From assembly GCF_000186245.1 (NCBI RefSeq), contig NC_014935.1, positions 124,001 to 188,000 of the forward strand: a stretch of DNA of 64,000 bases, given 5' to 3'. The notes under the pieces were generated by a model, which worked only from the letters and a program-made list of their open reading frames with translations, ran no database searches and was not told the DNA's origin. Below, piece by piece: positions 45,851 through 49,573 of this stretch (the stretch's first letter is position 1; every line of letters starts with the position of its first letter). The DNA comes from Nitratifractor salsuginis DSM 16511. Its GTDB lineage: Bacteria; Campylobacterota; Campylobacteria; Campylobacterales; Sulfurovaceae. The position numbers were made by a program, and so were the translations under genes.

Positions 45851-45865
45851 GGAAAATAATTTTCC
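45851..45865. promoter_or_regulatory. 7-1-7 palindrome, putative PerR/Fur-type operator 1
   Basis: GGAAAATAATTTTCC is an exact 7-1-7 inverted repeat. It lies where a -35 element would be, 17 bp before the -10 at 45883. Confidence 0.5.
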
Positions 45866-45882
45866 TTTAAGAGTATTTAGCA

Positions 45883-45888
45883 TATAAT
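45883..45888 (+). promoter_or_regulatory. -10 element (TATAAT) of peroxide-defence genes
   Basis: Consensus TATAAT 44 bp upstream of the thioferritin-like gene, placed between two 7-1-7 palindromes. Confidence 0.65.
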
Positions 45889-45895
45889 TCTTTAT

Positions 45896-45910
45896 GGATA
45901 AAATTTATCC
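45896..45910. promoter_or_regulatory. 7-1-7 palindrome, putative PerR/Fur-type operator 2
   Basis: GGATAAAATTTATCC is an exact 7-1-7 inverted repeat just downstream of the expected transcription start, centred 45 bp from operator 1. Positions over the -35 and +1 regions are typical of repressor sites. Confidence 0.5.
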
Positions 45911-45931
45911 AATAAAGAAAAAGGAGAAAAA

Positions 45932-46447
45932 ATGGCACGCAGAGGAAATTCCATTATCAAGGGGATCGAAGTCAATACGGTGATCGAGCTGCTCAACAGA
46001 GCCTATGCCGATGAGTGGTTGGCCTATTATCAGTATTACATCGAAGAGAAGGTGGTCAAAGGGATTATGAAGGATGCGGCGGTGGCCGAATTGCAGCAAC
46101 ACGCTGCCGATGAGCTCCGCCACGCCGATATGGTGGCGCAGAGAATACTGCAATTAGGCGGGACACCGCTGCTCAATCCCAAAGAGTGGTTCACTCATAC
46201 CAACTGCGGCTACGAAGAGCCGAGTAATTTCGATGTGGTGGCGATCCTGGAGGATGCCATCAAGGGAGAGCAGTGCGCCATCAGCACCTACTCCGAGCTG
46301 GCGGAATTGACACGTGGGAAAGATATCGTCACCTACGACATCGTCAGCCGGATTCTGGCCGATGAGGTCGAGCATGAAGAGGATCTCCAGGCGCTCCATG
46401 ACGATATCACCGAATTCGTCCGAGAGATCCGGGGAACATTGGCCTGA
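45932..46447 (+). CDS. Ferritin-like diiron protein, thioferritin/DPSL type
   Basis: 171 aa four-helix ferritin-like protein. Carboxylate/His ligands appear in ADEWLAYYQYY (Glu28), AADELRHADM (Glu61, His64), KGEQCAISTY (Glu114) and ADEVEHEEDL (Glu145, His148). Cys92 and Cys115 lie beside the diiron site as in DPSL thioferritins, which use peroxide to oxidise and store iron. AAAGGAG precedes the ATG. Followed by desulforubrerythrin, so it belongs to a peroxide-defence group. Confidence 0.85.
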   Translation: MARRGNSIIKGIEVNTVIELLNRAYADEWLAYYQYYIEEKVVKGIMKDAAVAELQQHAADELRHADMVAQRILQLGGTPLLNPKEWFTHTNCGYEEPSNFDVVAILEDAIKGEQCAISTYSELAELTRGKDIVTYDIVSRILADEVEHEEDLQALHDDITEFVREIRGTLA

Positions 46448-46497: not shown

Positions 46498-47157
46498 ATG
46501 AGACAGTATGAGAGTTACAAATGTGAGGTATGCGGCAATGAGGTCGAGGTACAGCAGGTAGGCGGCGGTACACTGGTCTGCTGCGGGCAGGAGATGGAGT
46601 GTACCACCAAGAATCTGACGGCGGTCAATCTGATGAAAGCTTTCGCCGGAGAGTCCCAGGCGCGGAACAAATATGAGTTTTTCGCCGAAGTGGCGATGCA
46701 GGAGGGGCTCCACCGGATCGCCCGTTTCTTCCAGGAGGCGGCGGACAATGAGAAGTACCATGCTATGGCGGAGTTCAAAGCCTACAACCGTCTGGTGAAC
46801 GATGTGGAGCTGGATACGACCCGGAAGAATCTCCAGTATGCCGCAGACGGGGAGCGCTACGAGCACGAAGAGATGTATCCCAACTTCGCCGCCATCGCCA
46901 AAGAGGAGGGGCTGGAAGCCATCGCAAGGCTTTTCCGGGCCATCGGCAAGGTAGAAGTGGAGCACGAAAAGGAGTACCTGGAGCTCAAGGCGGCCCTGGA
47001 AGCGGAAGGTTTCTTCGACAGTGAGAAGAACGAAGAGTGGATCTGCGAAGTCTGCGGCCACGTGCATCGGGGCAAGCGCCCGCCCGCACAATGCCCCCTC
47101 TGCAAGGCGGACAAAGAGTATTTCAAGAAGCGTTGCCCCGACATCACCGCGGGCTGA
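46498..47157 (+). CDS. Desulforubrerythrin, peroxide reductase
   Basis: 219 aa with three domains: an N-terminal desulforedoxin-like FeS4 site (Cys9, Cys12, Cys28, Cys29), a rubrerythrin diiron domain (ESQARNKYEFF, EKYHAMAE, EHEEMYP, EVEHEKEY), and a C-terminal rubredoxin site (Cys183, 186, 199, 202). This three-domain build is that of the Campylobacter jejuni desulforubrerythrin (Rrc/DRbr), which reduces H2O2. It lies 50 bp after the thioferritin-like gene, probably on the same transcript. Confidence 0.94.
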   Translation: MRQYESYKCEVCGNEVEVQQVGGGTLVCCGQEMECTTKNLTAVNLMKAFAGESQARNKYEFFAEVAMQEGLHRIARFFQEAADNEKYHAMAEFKAYNRLVNDVELDTTRKNLQYAADGERYEHEEMYPNFAAIAKEEGLEAIARLFRAIGKVEVEHEKEYLELKAALEAEGFFDSEKNEEWICEVCGHVHRGKRPPAQCPLCKADKEYFKKRCPDITAG

Positions 47158-47312
47158 GCGATCGGGTGCGATCCCGGCAGGATGGTCTGAAAATGAGTGG
47201 ATCGGTGATGAAGTGATTATCCCGCCTGCCACCGATATCTAGGAGGCAGAACGTCGCAAGAAGGGTGGAGAGTTCGAGTGCTTCGATTAGTGGTTCTGCC
47301 ACAAGAAGCGCT

Positions 47313-49573
<2,261 letters not shown>

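Follow-up and report, generated by a model that had tools for sequence, protein, structure and literature searches.

Two palindromes that bracket the promoter of a dps, desulforubrerythrin and katG gene group in Nitratifractor salsuginis as a predicted PerR operator pair

The closest described relatives of the element reported here are operators of the Fur family (the papers given by accession are drawn on in excerpt). The PerR box of Bacillus subtilis, quoted in PMC545781 as TTATAATNATTATAA, is a 7-1-7 palindrome found over promoters of peroxide genes. The boxes predicted for PerR differ between lineages, and the operators predicted for delta-proteobacteria (Rodionov et al. 2004, PMC545781) are lineage-specific palindromes that stand before perR, rubrerythrin, katG and ahpC and are unlike the B. 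subtilis box. In Campylobacter jejuni, katA, ahpC and the desulforubrerythrin gene rrc are raised in perR mutants (PMC4491227), and Fur too acts on rrc (PMC4491227, PMC4518328). As judged from partial listings of the open-access literature, no PerR site or motif described for vent-dwelling Campylobacterota was found.

The locus compared with these systems lies in a stretch of 64,000 nucleotides from Nitratifractor salsuginis DSM 16511 (contig NC_014935.1), which is called the window, all coordinates being counted within it. The original prediction placed two perfect 7-1-7 palindromes around the promoter of peroxide-defence genes, and both are present, flanking TATAAT over the -35 region and the predicted +1 region; of the promoter itself it had noted TATAAT and had missed the TTTAAG-N11-TATAAT core. 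The features are, in order:

45851–45865, no strand assigned: box 1, GGAAAATAATTTTCC, a perfect 7-1-7 palindrome that covers the -35 region and is predicted to bind a PerR dimer
45866–45871, forward strand: the hexamer TTTAAG, directly next to box 1; -35-like or HP1043(HsrA)/CosR-type element
45883–45888, forward strand: TATAAT, the -10 element, 11 nt past TTTAAG
45896–45910, no strand assigned: box 2, GGATAAAATTTATCC, a perfect 7-1-7 palindrome that covers the predicted +1 region and is predicted to bind a PerR dimer
45922–45926, forward strand: AGGAG, likely ribosome-binding site, read from the sequence
45932–46447, forward strand: dps-like ferritin (thioferritin/DPSL-like) that heads the predicted operon; Pfam Ferritin, 1.4e-27
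46498–47157, forward strand: desulforubrerythrin, made up of a desulfoferrodoxin N-domain, a rubrerythrin and a rubredoxin domain (Desulfoferrod_N, Rubrerythrin, RUBY_RBDX)
47375–49573, forward strand: KatG catalase-peroxidase; NCBIfam PRK15061, above cut-off

Box 1 and box 2 are 45 bp apart, with TATAAT in between and 7 bases separating it from box 2, and both fall inside the 183-bp gap that divides a small membrane-protein-like reading frame from the dps-like gene, whose ATG stands at 45932. Each is an inverted 7-1-7 repeat with an A/T-rich core near a promoter, in keeping with the Fur-family geometry ascribed to them, and the peroxide-defence genes named downstream are backed by domain matches (against the NCBIfam archaeal Dps model the dps-like protein scores 3.4e-23, under that model's cut-off). 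The gene after katG lies on the opposite strand, and katG is probably the last gene of the operon. In the gap before it (47158–47374), one frame, which contains stop codons, resembles by eye the broken C-terminus of the 1-Cys-type peroxiredoxin found in the same neighbourhood in a relative (L044).

The two palindromes are best read as paired PerR operators, the promoter that they bracket driving dps, desulforubrerythrin and katG and being released by peroxide, a reading to which we assign a probability of roughly 0.7. A strong TTTAAG-N11-TATAAT promoter would drive the three genes, and reduced, iron-loaded PerR, the peroxide-sensing repressor of the Fur family, would place one dimer on each box, so that the dimers over the -35 region and the start site would block RNA polymerase. 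Hydrogen peroxide would oxidise PerR and make it let go of the boxes, and the operon would then be switched on, with iron being sequestered and peroxide destroyed.

Such an element would be of a known kind, a Fur-family operator pair, most likely that of PerR, with a new sequence and layout. What it shares with the B. subtilis PerR box is the Fur-family 7-1-7 palindrome over peroxide-gene promoters; neither box matches TTATAATNATTATAA, as the ends here are GG/CC, CG/CG or AG/CT and the second base is mostly G where the B. subtilis box has T, and the bracketing of a promoter by two boxes is unlike the arrangement in that species. Lineage-specific palindromes before peroxide genes are also what the predicted delta-proteobacterial operators offer, but none of the PerR sites shown in the excerpted parts of PMC545781, Table 7 included, has the box sequence or the paired layout found here. 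Fur boxes, be it those of Escherichia coli or the delta-proteobacterial WTGAAAATNATTTTCAW, have the same geometry and A/T core, whereas the outer pair and the gene set differ here.

Conservation across species is a stronger argument against chance than palindrome statistics. The set of relatives comprised 80 dps-like loci, the nearest of them labelled Nitratifractor, Campylobacteraceae and Sulfurovum, and a box was called at no more than one mismatch within 200 bp upstream. By this measure a box precedes dps in 47 of the 80 loci and two boxes do so in 22, with a spacing of 45 bp in 16 cases, 44 in four, 46 in one and 50 in one. At the same stringency there are 69 matches in 15,773 bp of dps-upstream sequence against nine in the 530,713 bp that make up the rest of these loci, and six of these nine precede rubrerythrin or peroxiredoxin genes. 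No box was found within 200 bp upstream, at up to one mismatch, at the other 33 dps loci, in some of which another gene leads the operon. The boxes travel with the operon's first gene: in four rubrerythrin-led operons (L021, L023, L032, L038) they stand before rubrerythrin, and in L044, where a PerR-type gene is followed by a peroxiredoxin gene and then dps, both boxes lie before the peroxiredoxin gene, 45 bp apart. Across the relatives, boxes precede dps, rubrerythrin, katG and peroxiredoxin genes, the several peroxide-defence promoters expected of a PerR operator.

The symmetry of the boxes is conserved as well. A core-anchored alignment retained 68 of 91 promoters (23 were dropped for having no anchor or another spacer or for being cut short), and in these 68 the boxes hold fixed positions around the TTTAAG/-10 core. 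With the relatedness of the rows ignored, the outer pair of box 2 is complementary in 41 of 68 rows against 26.7 in shuffles, none of 1000 shuffles reaching as high, and the next pair in 50 of 68 against 32.6. The outer forms GG..CC, CG..CG and AG..CT vary symmetrically, and such symmetric changes mark a dyad. In box 1 the second pair is complementary in 43 of 68 rows against 33.5 when shuffled, relatedness again being ignored, and the outermost pair shows no covariation (20 of 68 against 20.9). Some box 2 copies carry CG..CG instead of GG..CC ends (L030, L038, L043, L051, L053, L054, L058), and most of these precede rubrerythrin.

A broader search ran the right half of box 1, TTTAAG and the -10 element as a query against 150 genomes of the family, one mismatch being allowed, and returned 70 places in 58 genomes against three control matches. 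The 51 places examined comprise all 21 exact matches and 30 with one mismatch, the remaining 19 being one-mismatch places. Thirteen of the exact matches precede dps (that of Nitratifractor included), three rubrerythrin, two a di-haem cytochrome c peroxidase (L318 by Pfam, and L326, which is 79% identical to it), one katG, one a rhodanese-like gene and one no clear gene. Since the query was derived from dps and rubrerythrin promoters, the dps matches were to be expected, and those before katG and cytochrome c peroxidase are independent. Among the 30 one-mismatch sites, 12 lie before peroxide genes (three dps, two rubrerythrin, six cytochrome c peroxidase, one katG), one before a truncated rubrerythrin gene and 17 elsewhere, among other places before nusA and rho.

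TTTAAG and the right half of box 1 recur in the cytochrome c peroxidase promoters, and in L318, L322, L324, L326, L339, L340, L341 and L347 the common part is ATTWTCCTTTAA(G/T). Their left part is different and conserved, near AATAATATTAATT, and makes a poor 7-1-7 palindrome. As a perfect one was found at the place of box 1 in none of seven such promoters tested, most of them lacking any with at least five matched pairs, these promoters were rejected as full boxes. In L331 (genome G111), katG lies behind two boxes and has an in-frame stop near its start, either an assembly error or a broken gene.

The Nitratifractor genome encodes two proteins of the Fur family, one Fur-like and one PerR-like. 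The former, encoded at G000 C1:1649240, is nearest to chains 6d57 and 4ets, which we take to be C. jejuni Fur. The PerR-like gene, at G000 C1:1039842, lies downstream of ahpC, and its product is nearest to 6dk4, presumably C. jejuni PerR (the chain label reads only Ferric uptake regulation protein), and then to B. subtilis PerR; NCBIfam PerR is its best family, yet the match stays under the curated cut-off. Asp at position 104 of B. subtilis PerR marks PerR proteins. This Asp is present in 34 of 34 PerR-type rows of the relatives against Glu in 30 of 30 Fur-type rows, and the genome does encode a PerR-type protein, with Asp at this position together with the metal and Cys ligands. The position equivalent to B. 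subtilis Asn 61 holds Lys in the PerR rows and Arg in the Fur rows.

A PerR-type gene adjoins dps in nine of the 80 loci, and in eight of them, mostly labelled Hydrogenimonas, the two genes diverge across the promoter region considered here, no second PerR gene being found in these genomes. Six of these eight have a box with at most one mismatch, and L068 and L074 have only weaker ones; the box at ahpC-perR is related to these, but it is single and its ends differ. Six of the eight genomes (their completeness is not given) hold a single Fur and a single PerR. A seventh has a further match below the threshold, and in the last only PerR was found. In the tree, the dps-linked PerR proteins form a clade of their own on the PerR side, the exact place of which is unsure because of long branches.

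The boxes might instead be Fur sites, at which the iron regulator would repress an iron-sequestering operon or would act in both its apo and holo forms. C. jejuni rrc supplies a precedent, since holo-Fur activates this gene and apo-Fur binds it (PMC4491227, PMC4518328), and apart from its outer bases box 1 agrees with the delta-proteobacterial Fur-box core (PMC545781, as excerpted). These outer bases, however, are where the dps promoters part from the iron promoters of the family. Half-sites were counted at the best site of a region where this had no more than one inner mismatch (24 of 29 feoB, 60 of 79 dps, 28 of 30 ahpC and 18 of 19 peroxiredoxin regions; one of 30 feoB and two of 81 dps regions were too short, and four of 23 peroxiredoxin loci were left out). 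The outer base is G in 62 and T in 13 of 120 dps half-sites, against G in one and T in 37 of 48 at feoB, counts in which the Nitratifractor feoB locus (L145) was taken on the wrong strand; read separately, its promoter carries TGATAGTGAATATCA. T..A ends are kept at 15 of the 24 feoB sites counted, and the family's feoB promoters have mostly ordinary Fur boxes; the dps boxes show neither the T..A ends of an TGATAATNATTATCA-like Fur box nor its association with iron-uptake genes. Moreover, where a regulator gene is divergent from dps, as in eight loci, it is of the PerR and not of the Fur type. The claim that the ends depart from the Fur boxes of the family therefore stands, and we regard a Fur operator as unlikely.

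The original prediction had also suggested that the boxes may be a lineage-specific peroxide operator; GG/CC as the general peroxide operator of the lineage is not supported. The outer base at ahpC is T in 35 and G in seven of 56 half-sites, and the second peroxiredoxin has mixed ends (T in 17 and G in nine of 36), its Nitratifractor site being GGATAATAATTATTATC. The ahpC-perR promoter (L013, 700–780) carries one imperfect box near TGATAAAAAATATTA, located 3' of the -10 element, and in many other genera a single box close to TAATAAAAATTATYA is found before ahpC-perR. Thus, GG/CC ends belong to the dps/rubrerythrin promoter class and are not a general mark of PerR.

A second alternative starts from the promoter core. 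TTTAAG-N10-12-TATA(A/C)T occurs exactly in 33 of the 80 dps upstream regions of the relatives against 0.08 in shuffles, a count made independently of any anchoring; in the core-anchored alignment, the conservation of the hexamers is partly built in, since the rows were chosen for TTTAAG and the -10 element. In the Nitratifractor genome, TTTAAG-N10-12-TATAAT is found at ten sites (G000 C1, L247–L256, including window 45866–45888) against one in the control. Judged by eye, the reading frames that follow include rpsB, rplM, rpsL and rho; behind three other sites (L247, L250 and L256), ARAGORN finds tRNA genes. This core likely represents a housekeeping promoter class of the HP1043/HsrA-CosR type, and the Nitratifractor sites fit the HP1043-type promoters described for Helicobacter in the excerpted parts of PMC5253667 and PMC8345958. 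It thus seems that the dps operon is served by a strong promoter of the housekeeping type, which flanking operators would keep down.

It could accordingly be argued that the conserved sequence is mainly a site for an OmpR-type regulator, CosR or HP1043 (HsrA), whose half-site would be TTTAAG, the palindromes being incidental. The site bound by HP1043, TTTAAG-5bp-TTTAAG, stands where a -35 box would be (PMC5253667, PMC8345958), TTTAAG is strongly conserved in the dps promoter, and the CosR footprints at C. jejuni ahpC (-37 to -17 and +1 to +21; PMC3139631) lie much like the two boxes. While the HP1043/HsrA and CosR promoters have TTTAAG before the -10 element in common with the dps promoter, there is only a single TTTAAG here, no conserved second copy at the right spacing (TTTAAG-N5-TTTAAG) being found in the core-anchored promoters. 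The same core also stands before ribosomal-protein and tRNA genes with no palindromes around it, and HP1043 sites are mainly direct repeats, one of those in the excerpted parts of PMC8345958 being also readable as inverted, in contrast to the dyad seen here. We hold this explanation to be quite improbable; CosR/HP1043 may nevertheless act alongside PerR at the dps promoter.

Counts within Nitratifractor itself are less telling. The window contains six perfect 7-1-7 palindromes against a simulated mean of 5.2, so that a single one means little; box 1 and box 2 are the only pair within 60 bp of each other, and such a pair arose in three of 200 simulated windows. When 177 bp of the intergenic region were simulated 20,000 times with their base composition kept, two non-overlapping perfect 7-1-7 palindromes appeared 18 times, and base composition alone thus rarely yields such a pair. 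In the whole genome (2,101,285 bases scanned), the exact motif GGAWAAWNWTTWTCC occurs twice, both times at the dps promoter and nowhere else. Allowing one mismatch gives 11 sites against ten for a reversed control pattern, so the strict motif is not enriched genome-wide, and the nine one-mismatch sites, all of which were read, include none with a recognised peroxide gene (the ninth, at window 60677, lies between recA and eno). As a regulon finder the strict scan was rejected, only the two known sites being exact.

Looser patterns brought somewhat more. The core ATAAWNWTTAT has 22 sites against 17 in the control, and the 12 read of 15 fetched include one useful site, about 100 bp upstream of the second peroxiredoxin gene. 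A Fur-box pattern with at most two mismatches has 16 sites against three; among the 15 fetched, one is that of feoB and two overlapping ones are that of the second peroxiredoxin, while the 12 that were read showed no other recognisable iron or peroxide gene. The expectation of further occurrences near oxidative-stress genes is therefore not borne out for the strict motif in this genome, where only a looser relative precedes the second peroxiredoxin, and is borne out among the relatives. That an A+T-rich promoter produced the palindromes by chance, as the commonness of single ones and the absence of genome-wide enrichment could suggest, is very improbable indeed in view of the fixed spacing, the symmetry and the gene association in the relatives.

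Several of these observations count against the PerR reading, and it is important to set them side by side: the strict motif has no further copy in the genome, and ahpC-perR, where autoregulation would be expected, has one imperfect box with other ends; box-less dps loci, the weaker boxes at L068 and L074 and the lack of outermost covariation in box 1 point the same way; and PerR and Fur boxes overlap in sequence, the PerR-like protein itself being under the NCBIfam cut-off.

A more speculative idea concerns how the two regulators might be kept apart. In B. subtilis PerR, an Asn-to-Arg change switches specificity. As the PerR proteins considered here have Lys where B. subtilis has Asn 61 and Fur has Arg, they may read the inner G of Fur sites. 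Campylobacterota PerR could then recognise the same inner G as Fur, with the outermost pair serving as an insulator: G..C (or C..G) for PerR-only sites at dps and rubrerythrin, T..A for Fur, and mixed ends for both. We put this forward tentatively, and consider it rather doubtful as it stands. If the outermost pair does insulate, it would explain why the PerR and Fur boxes of Campylobacter are hard to tell apart; and if the outer pair sets specificity, the rule would be a simple one that can be checked by a binding assay and then used for regulon annotation.

The ends of the boxes thus suggest a way to part PerR from Fur sites where both overlap (PMC4518328, as excerpted), and the box pair before dps provides a concrete, testable candidate operator for the control of peroxide defence in vent-dwelling Campylobacterota.
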